A DNA stretch of 29,477 bases. It comes from a virus. The stretch spans positions 1-29,477 of IMG/VR virus record IMGVR_UViG_3300009494_000014; one strand, 5' to 3'. Each line of letters begins with the position of its first letter. Within the stretch, counting starts at the first letter, position 1. The translations under genes and the position numbers were made by a program. Positions 2,176 to 28,907 of this stretch are shown here, piece after piece. The notes beneath the pieces are model-generated. The model did no database searches, was not told where the DNA came from, and worked only from the letters and a program-made list of their open reading frames with translations.

Positions 2176-2510
2176 CAGACTTGCTCCATTATCATCTCAG
2201 AGATTGCGCCGTTCTGATCCCGCCCGGTAATTTTAATCCGCCATTGCTTCGAACTTTTGTCACCGCCCACAATTTCGACCTTTTGAACTCCGCCTTTATC
2301 TTGCCCCAGCAGCTTGATGCTATCCTTATTAGCGGCCATGGCCATCGTGGTAGCCGTGGAGACTTTATCCAAGGTTTTAACCGTTTCCTGTATGGCCTTG
2401 CTAACATCGGAGATCACCTTTGAGGATTTAGAGGAAGCTATCCGGCCCAGGTCCTCAGACTTGAGCTTGATTCCACGTTTCTTGAGTTCCTTTTCAGATA
2501 TTTTTCTCAT
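2175..2510 (-). CDS. Hypothetical phage protein, 111 aa
   Basis: A basic N-terminus (MRKISEKELKKRGIKLKSEDL) leads into a Ser/Lys/Thr-rich helical middle (SKAIQETVKTLDKVSTATTMAMAANKD). The C-terminal end looks like a beta-hairpin (QWRIKITGRDQNGAISEMIM). The start ATG overlaps the stop of the giant ejection-protein gene (TAATG), and its own stop overlaps the next start, so it sits in a coupled run of three genes. I do not recognise the family. The position suggests an accessory virion or late protein. Confidence 0.55.
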   Translation of the reverse strand: MRKISEKELKKRGIKLKSEDLGRIASSKSSKVISDVSKAIQETVKTLDKVSTATTMAMAANKDSIKLLGQDKGGVQKVEIVGGDKSSKQWRIKITGRDQNGAISEMIMEQV

Positions 2511-5500
2511 TAATCAGACTCAATGCACTCCAAAAGTTTATTGTAATTCTCCAGGCGGTTATCAGCTTCATTAAGGGAGGTCCCGGCATCCGTAGTCACC
2601 TCAACAATATCGCCAGTCTCCGCGACTTCCATTTGAGCAGTGTAGTCTATTCCGGCTTTCTTACCTTTTTTAGCATCGGCCCGGACTTGATCCAGGGTAT
2701 TGACAAAGGCTTTCGCTTCTTTTTTCGCAGCCTTTTCCTCCGCCTCCGCGAACATATCGCTCGTTTCGCCTTTTTCATAACCGAATAAACCTTGTTGCCT
2801 GCCCACGGCCCCAGCGCCAGTGACGGGAGGTTTCCCAAACTTAGCTTGAACCTTCTTACCCTTTGCAGGCCGTTCAACGGCACCCTCCTTTTCAAGTTCC
2901 GCCTGCCGTTCCCATAGCGTTCCCTTCTCAGGAGTTAAGGCAAGCGGTTCTGCCTTTTCTTTAAGATGGGCTTTTTCCCGTATAACTTCTTTTTCTGTGG
3001 CTGAAGGAGACTCAAAGACTTCCTTAAGGGATTCAGGTTCTCTAATAGGCTTTTCTTTTACTTCACGCTCAGTTTCCCGCCTGGGGGAAGGGACTGTAAC
3101 CACTCCCGGAGGGGTTTCGCCCCTGGGCGCCCTAAAACCCTTACGCTCCCTTTCCGCTTTATGTTCTTTAAGATGTTGCTCCGCAACTGTGATGTTTTGA
3201 GCGATGCCATAACTTATCCCCACTCCTTTCTTTTTTATAATGCGGCCATCAGGAAGTTCATATACGAATTCTTTTCCGGCCAGGTATTCATCGGCTGCAT
3301 CAAGTAATTTATGAGCTTCTTCCTCGGATTTGGCCTGAATAATAAATTCATCTCCGGAAATGTGGTATGCAACATAGGCGGTAGTTTGCTTAAGGGCATC
3401 TCCGATCACCCTGAGCAAAACATCACCCGCTTCGTGGCTGATATTATCATTGACCCATTTAAGTGAGTCCGCATCGATGAATACCTGGACAGGCAGGCGT
3501 TCATCTTCTTCATAAGCCCTTTTATTTCCTAAGCCCGTGAGATGGTCAGAAAGGAGTTCCTTGCGCATTTCCTCGGGCGTCATTTGCTCGACACGCGTCC
3601 TTTCCTCAATATCCTTCCTTCTTTCAAATTCCTCCGGAGCCTTTTCAACGACTTCCTTTTCCGTGTACTTCTTTACCTCGATCTTGTATGCCGATATGAC
3701 CTCTGCCAGCATTTTAGCGCGTTCGGTCTTGTCAGGCCCGGCGCGTTCTGTGAGTTGTTTGACCTGGCCTTGATATATCTTATCCAGCTCCGCCTTTGTT
3801 TTATGCTCCGTCATGAAGTCAAGGTCATGCCCCTTAATATCGGCCTTGCTTATGGGTTTTGTTTGGTCCCCGTATTTCAGCCAGGCCTTGAATTCATCAA
3901 CTGAAAGGGCAACAATGTTCCCCAGGCCTTGCCATCCGCTCTCATAGTTAGCCAGGTATGCCACACGGGCTTTCTGCACAGTCTCAAAGCCCATCATGGT
4001 CTTATGTTCATCAAATTGAGTAGTCGCAGGCACCATTTGATTGACTACAAAAACCTTATCGCTCGTTAATTCATCACCAACAAAAACGTCAACCTGATCC
4101 CCGTCTTTATCTTCGGTCCGCAGGATATAGCCGTAATGGTGTTTCACCACGATTTCCCAGGCCTTGCCGTCCTTATCTTTTCCTTTCCGGATAGAGCCTT
4201 TCGGGTTCTCAATGGTAATATCCAGGCCGTAAAGATTAATATGGCCTTTCTGATAATTGCCTGCCTCTTTTTGCGCCTCAGTAGGTTCGGTTTCCGCTTC
4301 CTCCGCCGCCAGGTCGATAGCCTCCTTAAATTCTTTCTCGGGCGCCGCTTTTGAAAATTTCTCAACTGTGAGTTCGAGTTTATCCTTTACTGCATCGGCC
4401 TCAAGTTCTTTTGCCAGGAAGGTTGCTTTAAATGCAGGGGATTCCTTAGCGTAACAAGTGAACTGGTACATATCCGGCATATCAGGAGCAAAGCCCGGCC
4501 AGATGCCGTCATACTTAACCCCATGGCCCGGAAAGAGATTGCCGTTTATCAGTTTGGCTATTAGGTGCCCTTTTTGCTCGATTTCGTCAGGGGATGCCTC
4601 TTGAAGAACTCCACCTGCCTCAGTCTCTTTTGTGCCAGCTTCTCGCTCGAGTATGGCCCGCCCAGGTTCTTTCCCTTTTCGCTCAGTACGTGCCAGCCGT
4701 CGCTCTTGTGTTTCAGCATAGCCCTCCGCCTCCGTTACGGGTGTTAGGTACGCAGCCACCGGCTTTGTGCCCGTCGCCTCTTTCCAGGCAGCATCACGGT
4801 CGGACGCGGCCTCGAAGGGATCATTTAGGATTTCTTCAATTTCTTCTTTTGAAAAGCCGTACTCATTTCCAATCGACGCAATAACGTCGCCCTCAATCTG
4901 TTTGCGATGCCTTGCCGCAATTTCCTCAATTTCTCTGGTGCTAATTCCTTCATGTTGTAGCTCCGTGATTAAAAGTTTATAGTCTTTGTCAGGCAGGCCC
5001 TTAATGGTAGTAGGTTCCTCAATATAGGTTTCAGCAGCCAACCGCAGATCCCTATTCCGCATTTCATAGGCCTCGGATTTTACGTCCTCCCAAATACTTG
5101 CCTGTTTAACTTCATGCTCAGGAAACACATATCCAGACAGCCCTTTTTCAATAGCTCTAACAACTTCTTTTTTGCTATACCGGTTTTTCATAAAGGCTGG
5201 AAATTCAGAAGGAACGCCAAACCATTTCTCGGTACCATCATAATCGGTTACCCTAATGCGATGCCCGGCCTCCGCACCCTTGACTTGTTCGAGCAGGCCC
5301 CGGATATACGGTACCTTGAATTCCATGCCCTCAATTTCGGACGCTTCACCTTTTTCCTTAACCTGTTGGGTTAATCCTTCGTAGCCAGGCCGTGCGGTCC
5401 GGTCGTATGTTTCCCTTGTGACTCTTTCGGCCTCTACTCGACGCGCTTCTTCTGCTTGTGCCGTTTGAGCTTGTTTCTGCCGGGCAATATCTTCCTCAAA

Positions 5501-6898
5501 GACTTGAGCCGATTCCCGTGCCGGTATTCCAAAGGCGGGTGAACCAGGCCATTCGGGTTCCTGTGGGGGAGCTGCTTCGAACATTTGGGATTCTGGTATT
5601 GCTTCGTCCGGGAGAAAGTCCTCGGGTTCGAGCGCCAGCACGTCCCCAGTCATCATATCCTTTTCAGGAATTGTGGCCTCAGACTCTTTAAGCAGGCTGT
5701 CAATAACCTTGTAGGTGGGATGCTTCTTTGGGAATTGACTTTGAATTTCCTTGAGGTGAGTACTGTTAATTTTACCAGTACTGTATGCCTCTCGGAGATC
5801 CGTTTCCTGCTTTTGGGTTTTCGTTTCAGTCTTAAGGAGATCCGCTTCCCCAGGTCCAGACTTTTTACGCCGTTCGGCCATATCTTGCGTCGAACTGACT
5901 GCCGTCCCAGGTGCCATAAAAACGGAGAAGGCAAGCGCCGACTGTTTGCCTGTCTCCCATAACTGGTCAACAATCTCTTTCCTTGTTTGGGTGGGAATTT
6001 TGGTTCCCTTGAGGGCGTTATTGACTTCCGTGGCCATGTAGCGACCGGAGATATTGACTATTTCTTGAAGTTCCTCTTGACCTGTTTCAATAGCGACGCC
6101 AGTTCCATACTTTTTAGCCGCCCGGAAAACAATACTTTTTAGAGCCTTTGATTGAAGGACCTTCTTGACCGATGCAGTCAGGCCTTTCCTAACCAGGCTT
6201 TCAGCCCCCGGTATGGACCGGAGGAAGGTCTTGATCTGCAATAGCTCGATTGCCCCGTTAATAGCACCGACGCCCAGCCCGGCTACCTTTGCGATAGCCT
6301 CATTCATCTTTTCGCCCGTGTCCGGATCTTTCAGGTCTTTGAATTCACGATAGGCCAGCCCAGCCTCAATACCACCAATATTTTCAAGTGACGCGGAGAT
6401 CATACCTATTGAAAATCCAGCCGCAGCCGCAGCAGGTACGGTAATAGGAGCTGCAGGCCCACCCAGGGTAGCAATCGCACCGAATCCAAGGCCTAAAGCC
6501 GTGCCCCGCCTTAAACCTTGCTCCATGCCGGTCAGAGGGATGGGCGCCATTTCAGCCGCCGCCCTAACAGCTTGCTCAGGTAATGCCCTTGATGGGCGCG
6601 GACCACTGGGGATAGTTTCCTCGATAGCTTGAGCCCGCGCCTCAGTCTCAGGGCTTGCGTCCCCCAAAACCTGCTTAAAACCTAACTGACCAATGGAAAC
6701 TTGCTTTTTGCCTATTTCCCAGGATTCTTTTACACGCCCGCCGAAGGTAGGGGCTTCCTTGACTTCTTCCTGCCATTCAGCCTCCCATGGGTTCTCGGTA
6801 CCACCCCGGTCGGTAGGTTCCCAATCAGCCTTGAAGGGATCTTCGTCATCATCGTAAGGTTGCCAATCGGCGTCCCATAATTTTTGCTGTGTAGCCAT
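2510..6898 (-). CDS. Giant polyvalent ejection-type protein with pyrophosphatase-like and GGDEF domains, 1462 aa
   Basis: This is the largest gene of the window and the last of three probable internal virion genes. Residues 6-45 carry three acidic Trp motifs (WDADW, FKADW, WEAEW). A Gly/Ala-rich hydrophobic stretch at about 134-167 could contact or cross a membrane. Residues about 350-600 and 850-880 are charged and largely helical. Residues about 885-1010 resemble a family I inorganic pyrophosphatase: HYGYILRT at 921-928, then DGDQVDVFVG with acidic residues D932, D934 and D937. Residues about 1115-1245 form a GGDEF domain: DHLTGLGNKRAYEE, FIDADSLKWVND with metal-site D1142, and signature SGDEF at 1181-1185. 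The C-terminus (MEVAETGDIVEVTTDAG, then a Leu-rich end) resembles the tail of other phage or plasmid polyvalent proteins. I infer, without proof, that it enters the cell with the DNA. I recognise no peptidoglycan hydrolase domain. Confidence 0.8.
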   Translation of the reverse strand: MATQQKLWDADWQPYDDDEDPFKADWEPTDRGGTENPWEAEWQEEVKEAPTFGGRVKESWEIGKKQVSIGQLGFKQVLGDASPETEARAQAIEETIPSGPRPSRALPEQAVRAAAEMAPIPLTGMEQGLRRGTALGLGFGAIATLGGPAAPITVPAAAAAGFSIGMISASLENIGGIEAGLAYREFKDLKDPDTGEKMNEAIAKVAGLGVGAINGAIELLQIKTFLRSIPGAESLVRKGLTASVKKVLQSKALKSIVFRAAKKYGTGVAIETGQEELQEIVNISGRYMATEVNNALKGTKIPTQTRKEIVDQLWETGKQSALAFSVFMAPGTAVSSTQDMAERRKKSGPGEADLLKTETKTQKQETDLREAYSTGKINSTHLKEIQSQFPKKHPTYKVIDSLLKESEATIPEKDMMTGDVLALEPEDFLPDEAIPESQMFEAAPPQEPEWPGSPAFGIPARESAQVFEEDIARQKQAQTAQAEEARRVEAERVTRETYDRTARPGYEGLTQQVKEKGEASEIEGMEFKVPYIRGLLEQVKGAEAGHRIRVTDYDGTEKWFGVPSEFPAFMKNRYSKKEVVRAIEKGLSGYVFPEHEVKQASIWEDVKSEAYEMRNRDLRLAAETYIEEPTTIKGLPDKDYKLLITELQHEGISTREIEEIAARHRKQIEGDVIASIGNEYGFSKEEIEEILNDPFEAASDRDAAWKEATGTKPVAAYLTPVTEAEGYAETQERRLARTERKGKEPGRAILEREAGTKETEAGGVLQEASPDEIEQKGHLIAKLINGNLFPGHGVKYDGIWPGFAPDMPDMYQFTCYAKESPAFKATFLAKELEADAVKDKLELTVEKFSKAAPEKEFKEAIDLAAEEAETEPTEAQKEAGNYQKGHINLYGLDITIENPKGSIRKGKDKDGKAWEIVVKHHYGYILRTEDKDGDQVDVFVGDELTSDKVFVVNQMVPATTQFDEHKTMMGFETVQKARVAYLANYESGWQGLGNIVALSVDEFKAWLKYGDQTKPISKADIKGHDLDFMTEHKTKAELDKIYQGQVKQLTERAGPDKTERAKMLAEVISAYKIEVKKYTEKEVVEKAPEEFERRKDIEERTRVEQMTPEEMRKELLSDHLTGLGNKRAYEEDERLPVQVFIDADSLKWVNDNISHEAGDVLLRVIGDALKQTTAYVAYHISGDEFIIQAKSEEEAHKLLDAADEYLAGKEFVYELPDGRIIKKKGVGISYGIAQNITVAEQHLKEHKAERERKGFRAPRGETPPGVVTVPSPRRETEREVKEKPIREPESLKEVFESPSATEKEVIREKAHLKEKAEPLALTPEKGTLWERQAELEKEGAVERPAKGKKVQAKFGKPPVTGAGAVGRQQGLFGYEKGETSDMFAEAEEKAAKKEAKAFVNTLDQVRADAKKGKKAGIDYTAQMEVAETGDIVEVTTDAGTSLNEADNRLENYNKLLECIESD

Positions 6899-23028: not shown

Positions 23029-25178
23029 TAATTTGGCCTCGGTGCGCTGGGAGTCCGTGGCGGTCCCATACTTGCCCCTTCATTAGGCCTACCACCCGCT
23101 GCATCAATAACAGCAGCGTCAGGTATAGCCATACCCTCTTGACCTGGCATAACTCCGCCTGGCGGTACCATCATAGGCGCTTGCTCCATCATTTTTTGAC
23201 GGCGCTCCATGTCCTCTTTGGAAGGAATAATTTCCTCCGGGAGCTTAAGGCTTTTGCTCGTTTCCCTCAGAAGCGTGGCCCTGCCGGTTTCACCCATAAT
23301 GCTCATGTCAAGGTCGTTATTGGTCCGCTCCATGAACTCCATACGCCTGATTTGTAATTGTTCCTGTATAATCAGGTATTCGGAGGCCCTGGCCACAATG
23401 TTTATATCGCCCACCTTCATAATATCCTGATCGTACAACATTAAATGCAGCCAATGCTCGTAAATAGTGGGCTTGATGATATTTTCGTCAACCTGGCTAA
23501 CCACGTTCTTGAGTGTCTTAGATGCCGCGTTCATCAGCATTGAGAGCCCGGAGGCCGTTTTACCAGCGCCCCCCACATCAGAACTGCCATAAATGTATGC
23601 AGGGATGCCGCTTTGCTCAGATGCCTGCTCAAAGAAATACTCATAAACCTTCATCAAAAGGTCTGACATGGGGTCAGGCTGAAAGAAATTGACCGCGAAC
23701 TTCCCGGAGCCGGTTGAATCGCTTTTAGTTTTCCAGATCTTCCATGGCCACATGGACTCAGCGTCCTCCCCGGGTTGTAGCCTGTCCATCATAATTTCAA
23801 CTTGCGGCCCGGAGGCAATTCCCAGGTTATTAATAAGCGCCCTGGCTATGGCATTACAGATCCTTTGCACATCGCGCATTAACTCAGGAGGCGCTTTACC
23901 CCAAATCGAATCATTGACTGCCTCAAAAGACGCAGCGTAATAAGGCCTGTGGCCAAGCGGGTGAGGATTGAGCCGCGCCATGATAATGTATTGACCAACC
24001 AACCAGGCGTTCACCTGATAATCAAGTTCGGCGTCGGGGACCTGATCCTTTGACATACCCCATTCCATGAGAGTTTTCCCTTGCGCGAACCCCCAAAACT
24101 CAACTGCATCAATAGGCGGGTCAGGATCATCGAACTCATTAGGCCTATTCTCGACGTTTGCCCGCTCCTGATCCACGGTAAGCCATTCACGCAGGCCACC
24201 AGTTCCGTAATCATCCAGGACGGCCCGGATTGAACTTTCATCGAACCCGGGAACGCCTATCATGGCCACTAAATCCGACCGTCTAAGCCTGTGGCGCTCA
24301 CACAGATAGCCGTCTTGAATATTCTTTGCCCCAGGTGAAGGGTATATATCAAACGCAGACACGCGGCTATATTGACGCTCATACTTGTATTCAACAGCAG
24401 GAACGAGCTGTCCTGATTGATCCTCGGTCCAAACCAGCTTTTTCTTGCGCCGGATAATAGGCCCCTTGAAAAATGCCGTGGGGAATGTAACCAAATCATC
24501 TATAAAATCGGCTAATGCCGTGTAGTAGCCACCCTCAACCAAATCATCCTCAATACGCGCCTCGAACCGCTTTGTCGCCTCTTTGGCCCGTTCGGTCCGT
24601 TCTTGCTCCATCCGGCCCTGTATTTCTTGTATTCGTTCGGCGATATTTTCGGCGGATATAGCCTCGATGCCACCGTCAATCATAAGTTGAGCAGCTTCCA
24701 TGGTGACTTGCTGTTCAATTTCGACTTCCTCTGCCTCGGGAAGATCCGGCACGGGAGTTGGATCAATGGACCAGGGCTTTTCTCCAGGCGGTATCATAAT
24801 GTCACGAATCCAGCTTTTCGCGGCCCGGCACTTAACGCTTGTCAACATCATGTAAACGTCAGATCCGCCCCACTTATTAATCAGGGCTTTGCGCTCAGGA
24901 TCATAGGTACCGTTCCTTTGTCTCACGCACCTTAAAAGCCGTGTCTCAATACTGACATTATCGCCAGTAGCCGCAGTTTTCGCATTCCGTGCGGCCTGCC
25001 ATGCTGTCTTGACATATTGAGCCAACCGGAGGATTTCCGGTTTATCTTGTAGCTTTTGAGCAGCTTCCTTGTTTGCGTTTTCAGCCTGCCGTCGGTCTAT
25101 CTCAGAGTTTGAGACAATCCTTAGAAATCCATCACCCTGCTTAGCAGGAATAGCGGAGGTTGCAGATTGAGCGTCCAT
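23028..25178 (-). CDS. Portal protein, 716 aa
   Basis: This is the dodecameric DNA channel at the head vertex. Its length is close to that of P22-type portals. The N-terminal region (residues 1-130) has helical and beta segments with YDPERKALINKWGGSDVYMM. A long charged helical hairpin lies at about 150-215 (EEVEIEQQVTMEAAQLMIDG, RIQEIQGRMEQERTERAKEA). The wing/stem part contains YYTALADFIDDLVTFPTAFF, and YKYERQYSRVSAFDIYPSPG is a recognised portal-type motif. DSIWGKAPPELMRDVQRICN and EQSGIPAYIYGSSDVGGAG are also typical. The C-terminus is Pro/Met/Gly-rich (APMMVPPGGVMPGQEG), as expected for a disordered tail. The SD AAGGGGTG precedes ATG 25178. Confidence 0.8.
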   Translation of the reverse strand: MDAQSATSAIPAKQGDGFLRIVSNSEIDRRQAENANKEAAQKLQDKPEILRLAQYVKTAWQAARNAKTAATGDNVSIETRLLRCVRQRNGTYDPERKALINKWGGSDVYMMLTSVKCRAAKSWIRDIMIPPGEKPWSIDPTPVPDLPEAEEVEIEQQVTMEAAQLMIDGGIEAISAENIAERIQEIQGRMEQERTERAKEATKRFEARIEDDLVEGGYYTALADFIDDLVTFPTAFFKGPIIRRKKKLVWTEDQSGQLVPAVEYKYERQYSRVSAFDIYPSPGAKNIQDGYLCERHRLRRSDLVAMIGVPGFDESSIRAVLDDYGTGGLREWLTVDQERANVENRPNEFDDPDPPIDAVEFWGFAQGKTLMEWGMSKDQVPDAELDYQVNAWLVGQYIIMARLNPHPLGHRPYYAASFEAVNDSIWGKAPPELMRDVQRICNAIARALINNLGIASGPQVEIMMDRLQPGEDAESMWPWKIWKTKSDSTGSGKFAVNFFQPDPMSDLLMKVYEYFFEQASEQSGIPAYIYGSSDVGGAGKTASGLSMLMNAASKTLKNVVSQVDENIIKPTIYEHWLHLMLYDQDIMKVGDINIVARASEYLIIQEQLQIRRMEFMERTNNDLDMSIMGETGRATLLRETSKSLKLPEEIIPSKEDMERRQKMMEQAPMMVPPGGVMPGQEGMAIPDAAVIDAAGGRPNEGASMGPPRTPSAPRPN

Positions 25179-25188
25179 TTAACACCCC

Positions 25189-25347
25189 TTAATTTTCATC
25201 ATCAAAGGCAAGATCGCGTTCGCCTGTGGTTAGATCATACCCGGATGCCCACCTTTTAAAGCCAAGGCCAGCAAGTGCTTTTTCAATGTTATTATCCAGG
25301 TCAACATCGATCTTGTCGTCTTTCTTGTAAATAACTTTCAGTTTCAT
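25189..25347 (-). CDS. Small conserved-looking protein between terL and portal, 52 aa
   Basis: ATG 25347 overlaps the terL stop as TAATG and TAA lies at 25189. The product reads MKLKVIYKKDDKIDVDLDNN, then an amphipathic helix (IEKALAGLGFKRWASGYD) and an acidic end (LTTGERDLAFDDEN). The GFKRWASGYDLTTGERDLAF pattern is one I associate with short phage proteins at this position. It is easily missed because of length. It is probably translated by coupling to terL. The role is unknown; it may assist packaging or portal assembly. Confidence 0.6.
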   Translation of the reverse strand: MKLKVIYKKDDKIDVDLDNNIEKALAGLGFKRWASGYDLTTGERDLAFDDEN

Positions 25348-27785
25348 TAAGTCCACCCACGAGGATCTTTCCGGTCTGCATTCCTATTTTGGTCCCCGGA
25401 CATGACATTGGTTCCGCCTAATTCAAACGTAGCCCTAAATCTATGCAGTGTTGCCATGGTCCTTAAGGCATCGGCACCGTTAGAGTTATGAACTATAGCC
25501 CCGTTCTCTAAAGAAAAATGCCCCACGCCTGGAACAGTGAGGCACCAAACATCTTCTTTTTTATTTGGATTGGTTGTAACGGATACGACGCGCAACGGCT
25601 TTGCATGAAGGGGAGCAATAAATTTGGCTATGGCCGCTTTTACGAATAAGGGCGGGAAATGTTTTTCCACAAATCGGACAAACTCTATCTTCACGTTTCC
25701 ATTTCGTCCATGATTTGGATCGTTTTGCCTGCCGGCTATGCCAGAGACGGCCCGCCTCTGACTTGTGCCAATCAGCGGCTTTCTGACGTGCCTGTGGGGT
25801 AAAATGTTCTTTTCGCGTTCCGTGTGTTTTCTTCCAGTTATCAGAGAGGTGTTTTTTAATTGGCAAACATTCGAGGTTTGATAAATGATTGTCGGTAATA
25901 ATGTTGTTTTTATGATGGATATGGCAATCATTTGGTGTAGGGCCAAAAGCATCTTCCCAAACAACCTTGTGAAGATATCTGCCACCCTGGGAGAAATATT
26001 CTTGCTTATGTGGCGAAACGCGAAATAAACGTCCATCAAAATATTGTGTGATAGGGTCAAGGAAGACTGGATCTGCAAACCCCTCTGGAGGTCGTTTGCG
26101 TATTTCCACCCTTTCTCCGTTAAGAATAAATGATCCGGCGTACATTTCACCGTAAGTCCGTCGTTGAACGTGACCGCCACAAGTTGGGCATTTTTCTTTG
26201 TTATGTGAGGATTCAGGTATTGCTTCCAGCCACATGATGTTAAGACCTCCCCCGTACAAGGTAGGTCCATTATCTGATACGTTCCGGTACGTGTCAAGAC
26301 TTTTGTTTGACCTGCCAAGCAGGCCCAATCGTGCAAGGGCGTGGTCCTGTAAGAGCCCAGCGCCTCGTTCCATTCCTTTCGGTAGGACTCCACAGAGTTC
26401 AACCCAACATCTTTTTTCATATACCGCTTGGTTGTGTTGACTTCATCAAAAACACATATTCCCAGCATTTGACGGACCTGCTCAATCCCGCTTTCCTTAC
26501 TCAGCTTGGGAGCTATGTGAAATTGAAGGCCCAGGGCGGCGGCTGAATCAATCCGTCGCTTTCCGCTATTACCCCACTCCCGAACGTTAATATCATGGGG
26601 AGCCCCGTGTATTCCGTAATGGTAGCCCTTTTCGAGCGTCCAGGTGTCCAGGATTTCATGCTTGTAATGATCGAGGCCCTCGCCAGAATCCTCATGGTAG
26701 TCAATCACATGGATCTCGCGTCCGACGTCCTGGGTGAACCAAATGGCCGTGGTATCATCCATGCCAATATCCCACCAGGTGTCAACAAGAATTCCAGGTT
26801 GATATGGCACCCTTGTAATTCGGCCCTGTTCTCGAATCTTAATAAATTGCGTCGCATAGAACGTCCCCATGATAGCGGCCTCAAAAGCCTCTATCCAGGT
26901 GGACGGATGCTCCCGTTTCATATCATCGCCTTGCACATTCCATTTCTTGACGTACCAGGCCTTTTGCCAAAGATCGAGCTTGACTCCATGCTTATCCCGG
27001 ATCTCATTGAAATATTTGTTCTGATATTCGAGGAAGGTAATGCCGAAGGGATTAAGGCGGTTAAAGGCGTTTTCGTACCAGGAGAAAAAGAAGAATTTGT
27101 AATCCATCTTTGAAAGGAAGGAATTGCTTTGCTTTGCGGCCTGGGCGGTCTTTGTCATTTGGTAGAAATCGCCCTCGCGGCCCTCTGCCGTACTCTCGAT
27201 AATCACATAGTTACCAGGATGAACAGTGTTTAACGAGCCTGTCTTGATCTCACGGGCTTTCTCAGGGTATTTCGCACATATCTTGCCATACTCTGAAATA
27301 TGTAAGAGCTGATAGGTACCTGATCGCCCGGAGGTTGTAACACGCAGGCTTGAACCATTGGAGAAACGGAGAACCCGGGCGCTTGACCTATCGGCACGGA
27401 TCTCGCTCCGGATAGATTGAGGCAGGTTGTCATAGGCGTGTTTGATATTCCTATGGAAAAAGTCCTCCGCGTCCTCTTTATTGTGAGCGATGATAGCGGC
27501 CTGTATGTTTGAGGTAAACAAACAGGTGTCCAGGAACAATATACACGCTTCTGTTGTAATGCCATGCTGTCTCGATTTGAGGATTAGGTTGAGGTACCAC
27601 AGGCCCAGGTAAAGAATCTTTTGGACCAGGTTCATCTTAAAATCAATCTCAATGCCATCCTTATTGATGATTTTATACAGATGATCCAGACGCCAGCGCC
27701 GGTTTTTGAGCTTCTTTGAGAACTCTTGACGATAGGCTTCCTCTTGCTCAGGATCAAAAGCGATAGCTGGTTCAGCGCCGGTCAT
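25347..27785 (-). CDS. terL: Large terminase subunit (ATPase and nuclease) containing an intein, 812 aa precursor
   Basis: The motor protein that packages DNA. An ATPase domain has a Walker A-like KSRQHGITT at 70-78 and a Walker B/catalytic ISEYGK at 163-168. An RNase H-like nuclease domain has acidic residues D339 (TWWDIGMDD) and D398 (GAPHDIN), with a third, D772 (NGADALR). Residues 489-767 are an intein: it starts at C489 after TTPLHDWA and ends at N767 before S768. Removing it leaves a 533-aa protein, a normal terminase length, and restores HDWASNGADALR, the usual third nuclease motif. The start overlaps the small-terminase stop and has GGAGGAAATCGA upstream. The intein frame is open throughout. 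Splicing is inferred, not shown. Confidence 0.85.
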   Translation of the reverse strand: MTGAEPAIAFDPEQEEAYRQEFSKKLKNRRWRLDHLYKIINKDGIEIDFKMNLVQKILYLGLWYLNLILKSRQHGITTEACILFLDTCLFTSNIQAAIIAHNKEDAEDFFHRNIKHAYDNLPQSIRSEIRADRSSARVLRFSNGSSLRVTTSGRSGTYQLLHISEYGKICAKYPEKAREIKTGSLNTVHPGNYVIIESTAEGREGDFYQMTKTAQAAKQSNSFLSKMDYKFFFFSWYENAFNRLNPFGITFLEYQNKYFNEIRDKHGVKLDLWQKAWYVKKWNVQGDDMKREHPSTWIEAFEAAIMGTFYATQFIKIREQGRITRVPYQPGILVDTWWDIGMDDTTAIWFTQDVGREIHVIDYHEDSGEGLDHYKHEILDTWTLEKGYHYGIHGAPHDINVREWGNSGKRRIDSAAALGLQFHIAPKLSKESGIEQVRQMLGICVFDEVNTTKRYMKKDVGLNSVESYRKEWNEALGSYRTTPLHDWACLAGQTKVLTRTGTYQIMDLPCTGEVLTSCGWKQYLNPHITKKNAQLVAVTFNDGLTVKCTPDHLFLTEKGWKYANDLQRGLQIQSSLTLSHNILMDVYFAFRHISKNISPRVADIFTRLFGKMLLALHQMIAISIIKTTLLPTIIYQTSNVCQLKNTSLITGRKHTEREKNILPHRHVRKPLIGTSQRRAVSGIAGRQNDPNHGRNGNVKIEFVRFVEKHFPPLFVKAAIAKFIAPLHAKPLRVVSVTTNPNKKEDVWCLTVPGVGHFSLENGAIVHNSNGADALRTMATLHRFRATFELGGTNVMSGDQNRNADRKDPRGWT
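25561..26235 (-). CDS. HNH endonuclease nested out of frame inside the terminase intein, 224 aa
   Basis: This gene lies entirely within the intein coding sequence in a different frame (its first base is the third base of a TerL codon). The ATG at 26235 has GGGGGAGG ten bases upstream. Features: a CPTC motif at 16-19, then RRTYGEMYAGSFILNGERVE and KRPPEGFADPVFL. An HNH core follows: RYLHKVVWEDAFG at 86-98, HIHHKNN at 105-111, DNHLSNLE at 115-122 and KKHLSDN at 127-133. The C-terminal part has a Cys4 cluster (CPIC at 186-189, CSPSC at 207-211) and a basic end. From memory the whole length, including the region over intein block B, matches an HNH family of phages. Homing at the terL site or a terminase-associated cleavage role are both possible. 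An upstream in-frame ATG (26373) is less likely. Confidence 0.8.
   Translation of the reverse strand: MWLEAIPESSHNKEKCPTCGGHVQRRTYGEMYAGSFILNGERVEIRKRPPEGFADPVFLDPITQYFDGRLFRVSPHKQEYFSQGGRYLHKVVWEDAFGPTPNDCHIHHKNNIITDNHLSNLECLPIKKHLSDNWKKTHGTRKEHFTPQARQKAADWHKSEAGRLWHSRQAKRSKSWTKWKREDRVCPICGKTFPALIRKSGHSQIYCSPSCKAVARRIRYNQSK
26246..26253 (-). promoter_or_regulatory. Internal ribosome binding site for the nested HNH gene
   Basis: GGGGGAGG lies inside the intein block A region (codons for T-G-E-V), ten bases before ATG 26235. It decides the HNH start and implies translation separate from TerL. Confidence 0.65.
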
Positions 27786-28195
27786 TCGATTTCCTCCGAA
27801 GGCAAAGGAGGTACTCCCGCAGATTTGTCGAGTATGTCTCTGACGACCTCGCCGACAAGTCTGTCAAAGCTGTGGGTGACGGATACTTTCTCCGTGGGAT
27901 AAAGGCCCCGCTGTTTACATATCTCTACCCAGGCCTTAAGCCTGATTCCATTGTCAGCTAATAGCTCCTGGATCAAGGTTTCGTCTGTGGTGCCCTTGAT
28001 AACCGAAAAGCCGTCAACCATCGGGATAGTTCGGTCAAACCACCCCTTGAGCTTATACGTCTTTGGAGTAACGGCCCCTAAGAGTTCTTTTCCTTTTTGC
28101 GCCAGGATCTGTGGCGTAACTCCCTCCGCGTCATAAAACTGAGACATGGGCGCGGTTGTGATACTGTCAAGATGCTCTTTTAACGTGGCTGGCAT
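27782..28195 (-). CDS. Probable small terminase subunit, 137 aa
   Basis: The gene lies immediately upstream of terL, with a four-base overlap (ATGA). The product is helical (MPATLKEHLDSITTAPMSQF, then YDAEGVTPQILAQKGKELLG) and ends with GLYPTEKVSVTHSFDRLVGE and an acidic tail (SEEIE). Small terminases are about this size, with an N-terminal DNA-binding part, a helical oligomerisation part and a C-terminal portion contacting TerL. The GLYP-x-EK-x-x-VTHS end recalls them. No SD is evident before ATG 28195. Short repeats, which could be its recognition sites, lie just upstream. The call rests on position and general character. Confidence 0.55.
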   Translation of the reverse strand: MPATLKEHLDSITTAPMSQFYDAEGVTPQILAQKGKELLGAVTPKTYKLKGWFDRTIPMVDGFSVIKGTTDETLIQELLADNGIRLKAWVEICKQRGLYPTEKVSVTHSFDRLVGEVVRDILDKSAGVPPLPSEEIE

Positions 28196-28312: not shown

Positions 28313-28540
28313 TCAGAACGTTTCACCCTTCGAGGATTTAATTGCAATCCAGCGCTTGAGTGAGCTGGGAAAGGCACAGACAACCCGGCGAGGGGGAGGC
28401 CCGGAATTGCGATAAAATATGTATCCGCCATTATGGAGTTCCTGCCTATATTGCATCATCTTTCGCACAGAGCAATTAAACATGCCGGCGATGGAATTCC
28501 AACCTTGAATCGCTATTTCACCGTCATACGGCACAATCAC
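28313..28540 (-). CDS. Small helix-turn-helix DNA-binding protein, 75 aa, GTG start
   Basis: The sequence contains GWNSIAGMFNCSVRKMMQYR, then LHNGGYIFYRNSG and PPPRRVVCAFPSSLKRWIAI. An Ile-Ala-x-x-Phe-x-Cys-Ser-Val-Arg-Lys helix pair, a GG turn and a following basic/Trp helix give the pattern of a winged or MerR/excisionase-like HTH. The GTG start overlaps the upstream stop (GTGA). It sits next to the repeat array and the terminase genes. Binding that array, regulating packaging genes, or acting as a Nu1-like terminase component are possible. The fold call is by pattern only. Confidence 0.6.
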   Translation of the reverse strand: MIVPYDGEIAIQGWNSIAGMFNCSVRKMMQYRQELHNGGYIFYRNSGPPPRRVVCAFPSSLKRWIAIKSSKGETF

Positions 28541-28887
28541 ACCTTCCTACCATACATTTTATTATTTAAAATATATTCAATTAGCTCAGGGGCGGGATGA
28601 AACCACTCACCACGTTTTCGATATTTCTTAAATCTCTTATGGAGTTCAGCTTCTAAGTCAAAACCGCCCTTCATCTTACCTATCAGCTTTATTTTCATAC
28701 AGTTATCAATCTGCATTCTCACGAGTCTTGATTTAACATGGCGCGTAGTGCCTATCTTTACAAACCCATCCTCATTTTGCACAAAATAAACGTAAGGCTG
28801 TTTTTGTAGGTGTGGAACTTGACAAAACGCGCCCTGTACAAGCGGAAGGCTGGTCACTCTGTTCATTTCATCAATGGTTACCGGCAT
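28537..28887 (-). CDS. GIY-YIG-type nuclease domain protein (T5orf172/MUG113-like), 116 aa
   Basis: I chose ATG 28887, with GAGGGG seven bases upstream; a GTG at 28902 is in frame. Residues about 32-97 show the compact GIY-YIG variant. YVYFVQNEDGFVKIGTT supplies the YVYF and VKIG strands. RHVKSRLVRMQ holds the catalytic-type arginine. AELHKRFKKYRKRGEWFHP is the typical end with acidic and His/Trp residues. Proteins with this domain are common in phages and are assumed to be DNA nickases or nucleases, but few have been tested. The start of the next gene overlaps its stop (GTGA). Its place just ahead of the packaging genes may indicate a terminase-associated or homing role. Confidence 0.7.
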   Translation of the reverse strand: MPVTIDEMNRVTSLPLVQGAFCQVPHLQKQPYVYFVQNEDGFVKIGTTRHVKSRLVRMQIDNCMKIKLIGKMKGGFDLEAELHKRFKKYRKRGEWFHPAPELIEYILNNKMYGRKV

Positions 28888-28907
28888 TTCAAATCCCCTC
28901 ACTTAAT

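Follow-up and report, generated by a model that had tools for sequence, protein, structure and literature searches.

Within the large terminase subunit gene (terL) of the virus record IMGVR_UViG_3300009494_000014 (positions 1 to 29,477, the 29,477-nucleotide stretch analysed here and called the window below), the same DNA encodes a predicted intein and, in another reading frame, a predicted HNH nuclease with its own start and stop codons. We put at roughly 85% the probability that the TerL intein splices in cis and that its homing nuclease is not a fused domain but a gene of its own, nested within it in another frame. An earlier note on this DNA had pointed out the overlap, and our analysis confirmed it at its coordinates, with the intein at 25485-26321 and the HNH gene at 25561-26235, and found the phenomenon to be larger than first described.

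The TerL open reading frame (ORF) has 812 codons (25347-27785, minus strand, as are all features given below), shows no stop over its whole length, and matches the terminase large subunit family phrog_2 of PHROGs (E = 1e-18) as well as the Pfam family Intein_splicing. The intein (PF14890, E = 9e-10) divides it into an N-extein (26322-27785) and a C-extein (25347-25484) and is 279 residues long, with TTPLHDWA and SNGADAL as flanks; its boundaries, taken from comparison with the intein-less locus L325, place its end exactly at HN, followed by Ser+1 of the extein. It has the block A nucleophile (CLAGQTKVLT including Cys1, 26292-26321), the TxxH of block B (VKCTPDHLFL, 26121-26150), and C-terminal blocks F and G (VWCLTVPGVGHFSLENGAIVHN, 25485-25550) with HN before a C/S/T residue. 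Cys1 and the block B residues T61 and H64 are invariant among 52 aligned inteins of the window's class, here called class I (54 representatives by profile, including the doubtful L191, which the profile places there and which lacks the class start motif). Across the cis representatives of the wider survey described below, Cys opens the N-block match in 183/186, T/NxxH is present in 179/186, and the +1 residue is C, S, or T in 173/186.

An AlphaFold model of the intein frame shows a confident Hint domain assembled from residues ∼1-88 and 241-279, with the C-terminal part at a predicted local distance difference test (pLDDT) score of 91 to 96. Its best solved match is the DnaB intein 1mi8 (Z score of 19.3 and root mean square deviation of 1.8 over 127 residues), and the solved inteins matched by sequence include gp41-1 and NrdJ-1. 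Between the two halves lies a stop-free filler of about residues 89 to 240 (25602-26057), with low intein-frame identity among relatives and pLDDT block means of 35 to 63; the score falls below 50 at residues 91-209 and 225-238, in agreement with the ∼150 residues without a recognisable domain that had been remarked on. Conserved-looking FG... motifs in this filler were set aside as a shadow of the HNH frame, because intein-frame identity there is just 0.25 to 0.34. The window intein has a predicted Hint fold, is an in-frame insertion with an uninterrupted allele, and is predicted to splice.

The nested gene runs from an ATG at 26235 to a TAA at 25561 and encodes 224 residues, the intein frame being the HNH frame + 1. 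A search with the longer 270-residue ORF of this frame gave Pfam HNH_3 (PF13392) with an E of 4e-11, and there are PHROGs HNH matches, phrog_15471 among them, the best of which covers residues 81-218. The catalytic core (HH ... N ... H, residues 107-129, 25849-25917) is conserved: in 40 class I HNHs, H107, H108, and N120 are invariant and N116 and H129 nearly so, and a rough HNH catalytic pattern was detected in 52/54 of class I. AlphaFold gave the protein a mean pLDDT of 85 and a predicted template modeling score (pTM) of 0.52, with residues 1-12 below 50; residues 31-47, which lie over block B, form two predicted strands (31-38 and 41-47) with pLDDT of ∼87 to 90. A fold search with this model returned nothing at an E of 0.001 or better, the top match being I-HmuI with an E of 0.1. 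The protein is a family match with its catalytic residues, and its role as a homing nuclease is putative.

Two other starts were considered for this gene and rejected. The 270-residue ORF, which begins at 26373, is a merely mechanical one, and a GTG near its residue 88, after block B, had been suggested by the free-standing matches, which begin at residue 91 or later of that ORF. We placed the start at 26235 because the class I relatives and the pattern of a Shine-Dalgarno (SD) sequence followed by ATG point there.

The overlap is not confined to filler. Block B lies inside the HNH ORF, as the earlier note had claimed, and the conservation of both frames was measured segment by segment over 40 class I members (408 pairs). 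In HNH residues 1-14, identity is 0.44 in the HNH frame versus 0.70 in the intein frame, so that the constraint there is mostly that of the intein and these residues look like a leader. The clearest two-frame constraint therefore falls on HNH residues 15-45, from CPTCGG to IRK over the block B region (26101-26193), with identities of 0.68 to 0.69 in the HNH frame and 0.64 to 0.72 in the intein frame. Residues 46-65 are intermediate (0.60 for HNH versus 0.55 for the intein), and over residues 66-215 the HNH frame retains 0.51 to 0.69 whereas the intein frame drops to 0.25 to 0.34.

The third codon positions tell the same story. In tests on 19 disjoint pairs, with sites treated as independent and single-coded stretches as controls, HNH wobble differences were 0.202 in the dual stretch versus 0.565 in the HNH body (P = 4e-11 over sites), and intein wobble differences were 0.224 versus 0.419 and 0.597 in the two intein-only blocks (P = 0.0011 and 1.5e-7, respectively). 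Both wobble positions are suppressed at 26101-26193. Both frames are conserved where block B overlaps the N-terminal hairpin of the HNH protein, and beyond it mainly the HNH frame is; the many relatives with the same layout suggest that the double writing has been kept by selection.

The start signal of the HNH gene is itself written in intein codons. In the window, the SD-like GGGGGAGGT (26245-26253) lies in the codons of the intein residues TGEV, and in nearly all of class I, the HNH start falls between blocks A and B. In most members, GGNGAGGT arises from the codons of the intein residues GEVLT and the ATG from those of xCGWK; of the 51 motif-bearing members, 38 form the ATG and 35 have GGAG, GAGG, or AGGA at SD distance. 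The wobble bases are biased accordingly: the base before TGT is A in 45/51, versus 10.2 expected from the same residues elsewhere, and the Glu codon is GAG in 37/46 class members versus 927/1733 elsewhere in the same ORFs. SD sequences of at least 5 nucleotides precede the gene in 36/54 of class I versus 2/54 controls, and likewise in split loci (17/22 versus 4/22) and free-standing relatives (15/28 versus 4/28). Because of these counts, independent initiation of the HNH, predicted as it is from sequence, is well supported in the window's class.

Searching both window frames with tblastn against 50,697 phage records, the check that had been proposed for the two translations, uncovered four further phages with an HNH in another frame of a TerL insert, namely, MT838676.1, TJE1, LS06-2018-MD07, and Highwayman. 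The records of TJE1, LS06-2018-MD07, and Highwayman annotate TerL alone where the HNH lies. We then assembled a wider set with HNH queries by scanning viral contigs four times and genome contigs once, each scan yielding 80 loci at most; a copy of the window (L095) was removed before counting, as was an HNH-less mini-intein (L005), and the resulting set comprised 323 HNH loci including the window. The first scan used only the HNH sequence. Over the matched region, 78 of its 80 loci showed no stop in one alternative frame (+1 in 76 and +2 in 2) and 3 to 34 stops in the other, a pattern beyond chance.

Frames were classified with profile hidden Markov models of the intein N and C blocks. The HNH lies in +1 to a fully open intein in 239 of the 323 loci and in +2 in 20, and 32 lack intein blocks and 32 are mixed. 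After reduction to a non-redundant set at 90% nucleotide identity, the 238 representatives comprise 173 in +1, 11 in +2 (L075, L080, L107, L118, L136, L141, L156, L162, L258, L267, and L322), none in frame, 29 without intein blocks, and 25 mixed. An in-frame HNH was found in 0/323 loci by a classifier that was run without a true in-frame HNH intein as a positive control, and in just one of the 238 representatives (L243, itself a +1 case) does the HNH frame stay open for over 120 codons upstream. In all cis representatives (185/185), the HNH gene terminates before block G ends; with a stop codon of its own, an HNH in the intein frame would truncate TerL, so that only +1 or +2 is possible. Of 54 open intein-frame ORFs that were sampled, 43 match phrog_2, and other terminase families are also in the tally. 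An independent contig (L015) is 91% identical to the window in the HNH frame, and the presence of the layout on many independent contigs excludes a sequencing error as its cause. The conservation of the first 70 HNH residues, on which a doubt had been raised, holds for the window's class, and these residues are absent from free-standing and class II relatives.

Two side observations belong to this survey. The insertion point in TerL varies by a few residues around a conserved D..DAxRY motif (L250, L281, and L004 exteins), and related HNH loci occur in contigs titled archaea (L297, L299, and L313) and candidate phylum (L298), of which L298, L299, and L313 are open +1 cases.

Openness of the second frame follows the intein. 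Where both intein blocks lie in one alternative frame, 259/272 loci are fully open, and the stop-bearing loci that we inspected are mostly split inteins, so that stops in the intein frame of homologues, which the earlier note had held out as a threat to its own idea, do not speak against it. An open alternative frame was seen in 0/32 loci without intein blocks and in 0/27 free-standing relatives, the latter having a mean of 5.70 stops in the +1 frame and 18.9 in +2. The +1 relation may dominate because in free genes it holds fewer stops than +2. Shuffling of synonymous codons, with rows containing an HNH-frame stop or N left out, gave a mean of 2.24 stops for 171 open +1 genes and 8.83 for 10 open +2 genes.

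The intein has an empty-site allele. Sixteen loci were retrieved with the window TerL (the tail of L340 being left out of the reading), and 14 of them lack the intein, which is carried by L326, on the same contig as L015. L325 is an exact empty site that reads across the junction, its N-extein showing 84% nucleotide identity, and three other intein-less loci (L327 to L329) have the same tail. Within the fetched loci, no HNH relative was found in 13 of the 14 intein-less cases, including L325, and the remaining one, L338, has a weak HNH match (19.5% identity; E = 5e-4). Since the intein-less loci nearly all lack the HNH, the two appear to have been gained or lost together there. Similar nucleases also sit in dissimilar terminases: in 364 of the 702 pairs with HNH identity of at least 55%, the TerL exteins are below 35% identity or could not be usefully aligned.

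After an oddity in the classifier, the 25 mixed representatives were inspected locus by locus. L112 and L318 proved to be additional open +1 cases, L297 a broken +1 case, and the other 22 were labelled split inteins, including L014, L206, L215, L132, L209, L218, L227, L296, and L305, as well as L122 and L238, whose contigs hold the C side only. In the split layout, the ORF of TerL and intein N stops soon after block B, the HNH gene follows, and an ORF with intein C and the TerL C part comes last; in the clearest cases, this last ORF starts at the HNH stop (L206, ATG 3600; L215, GTG 2117). In the split locus of Lactobacillus phage CL2 (L014), the annotation table omits the small ORF for the C part that follows the HNH. 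Free-standing HNH relatives adjoin terminase genes in several phages, and the TerL of L005 has a mini-intein without an HNH.

The layout has changed repeatedly on the tree of the nuclease. A FastTree phylogeny of 237 HNH rows (the short L324 was excluded and L297 left unlabelled) needs at least 29 state changes, and strongly supported branches alone force at least 11 for cis +1, 7 for free-standing, 4 for split, and 3 for cis +2. The window falls in a starred clade whose 53 rows are without exception cis +1.

These observations suggest how the locus may work. Ribosomes starting at terL would make a TerL-intein-TerL precursor, the two ends of the intein, joined by a disordered loop of ∼150 residues, would assemble into the Hint domain, and self-excision would leave a whole TerL. 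Other ribosomes would start within the intein, at the SD and ATG contained in its codons, and produce the HNH in the other frame; this nuclease would cut terL genes that lack the intein, close to the same conserved site, and intein and nuclease would be copied into the cut gene during its repair. An HNH with its own stop would have been confined to +1 or +2, with stops then purged from the intein frame. We infer that a free HNH gene once entered a mini-intein, because there are free relatives beside terminase genes, a mini-intein in L005, and split relatives.

Other explanations would account for parts of this. The HNH could be a packaging-associated partner of the terminase that is merely housed in the intein, its link to terL being functional; the position of free-standing relatives next to terminase genes in several phages would fit, and a brucellaphage paper (PMC4422536) favours such a link, citing Kala et al. 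However, 13 of the 14 intein-less TerL loci have no HNH relative, L338 with its weak match standing alone, and similar HNHs accompany very different TerLs, so we regard this as unlikely. Programmed ribosomal frameshifting into the HNH frame, yielding an intein-HNH fusion, would agree with the overlap of the frames from 26235 on and with the intein-dominated constraint at HNH residues 1-14, but most class members have an SD and an ATG at the HNH N terminus by way of biased intein wobble bases, and we consider frameshifting quite improbable.

It is very hard to maintain that the second frame is an ORF that arose by chance through a frameshift or sequencing error, or that it is a relic in decay. 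The broken frame pair of L297 shows that decay happens, yet the catalytic residues are retained, purifying selection acts over most of the HNH frame, and L015 preserves that frame on an independent contig. HNH genes are common in phage introns, and the insert could be a group I intron that carries an HNH ORF and is removed as RNA; this we hold to be extremely improbable, as no stop interrupts the insert in the TerL frame, a Hint domain is predicted from it, and no Rfam match at an E of up to 1, i.e., no group I ribozyme core, was found within 24800-27900.

Several points weigh against the cis-splicing intein with a nested nuclease gene. Translation of the HNH, splicing, cutting, and homing are all steps that we infer. 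The loci were fished by HNH and limited to at most 80 per scan, so their fractions are not natural frequencies, and the P values of the wobble tests ignore common descent. The rough HNH catalytic pattern was detected in just 96/121 of class II, L297 is broken in both frames and looks decayed, and L076 looks decayed in its HNH frame. SD sequences of at least 5 nucleotides are weakly enriched in class II (33/119 versus 12/119 controls) and not at all in +2 cases (1/11 versus 1/11), so that independent initiation, well supported in class I, is weakly or not supported in the other cis cases. A single open gene is in itself unremarkable, because in the shuffle of the 171 open +1 genes, the probability that a gene has zero stops averaged 0.095. 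The absence of stops from all 171, and of Met before an A-starting codon (0/282 versus 23/74 in free-standing genes), is circular because the genes had been selected as open; such zeros show the cost of an open frame and not selection for it. The evidence lies in the contrast with free genes and in openness tracking the presence of the intein, and the figures free of this circularity are the 78/80 of the first scan and the 259/272 and 0/32 of the classification by intein blocks.

Like a canonical large intein, the window intein has a Hint domain interrupted by a mobility nuclease, a conserved and essential extein, and an exact empty site. Unlike in the canonical form, the nuclease does not lie in the intein frame; bounded by start and stop codons of its own, it would be made as a separate protein, and block B is dual coded. 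Split inteins of the "fractured gene" type, with a free-standing endonuclease between the halves, were reportedly described by Dassa et al. in 2009. They share with this HNH family, in its 22 split representatives, an autonomous nuclease gene between the N and C parts, but the TerL-intein of the window is a single open frame, without halves on two ORFs, and its one polypeptide would splice in cis.

The ShiLan insertion offers an analogue without an intein. As described in PMC11855218, it is free of stops in the host frame and hides, out of that frame, an HNH gene with start and stop codons of its own; splicing motifs are absent from it, and no ribosome binding site could be detected. The window has an Intein_splicing match, a Hint model, and an encoded SD. 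A brucellaphage large terminase with a putative intein-encoded HNH gene out of frame within it was mentioned in 2015 (PMC4422536). By that description, the layout is apparently the same, and the mention, in the part of the paper available, is a passing one without splicing motifs, two-frame constraint, or a wider family. An out-of-frame HNH within a methylase is mentioned in PMC12613952, and the layout is not shown in the accessible portions of PMC8228797, PMC10448857, PMC6145125, and PMC5418858. The arrangement, of which the earlier note knew no well-described example, does have precedents in the passing mention for TerL and in ShiLan as a non-intein analogue, and the locus is a variant of them. 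For the dual-coded block B, the encoded SD, and the pairing of split and cis forms, no description was found in the literature as far as it was available, including PMC4422536, PMC11855218, and PMC12613952.

The locus indicates that the homing nuclease of an intein need not be fused to it or in its frame, and that the same bases can encode a catalytic block for protein splicing and a folded element of a nuclease. A wider reading, towards which, taken whole, we lean only slightly, would add to the inteins with a fused nuclease and those with none a third architecture, in which the intein is a shell enclosing an autonomous nuclease gene in another frame. HNH genes from beside terL would have entered mini-inteins repeatedly, and the intein would then have either split, with trans-splicing, or been rewritten stop-free, in the window's clade up to a dual-coded block B; these would be two exits from one event. 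Split inteins may arise by invasion of a mini-intein by a free gene. The 184 non-redundant open cases in two frames, together with the split and free relatives, make this a naturally replicated system for measuring overprinting, with free-standing genes of the same family as the reference. They are also a warning for annotation, as the nested HNH is missed where TerL alone is listed.

Two other genes of the window, both on the minus strand, deserve mention. Upstream of the terminase gene, a small protein (28537-28902) matches phage endonuclease and homing endonuclease PHROGs. A 1,462-residue protein (2510-6898) matches, at residues ∼860 to 1020, many PHROGs with conflicting names, namely, DarB-like antirestriction, endolysin, and minor head.

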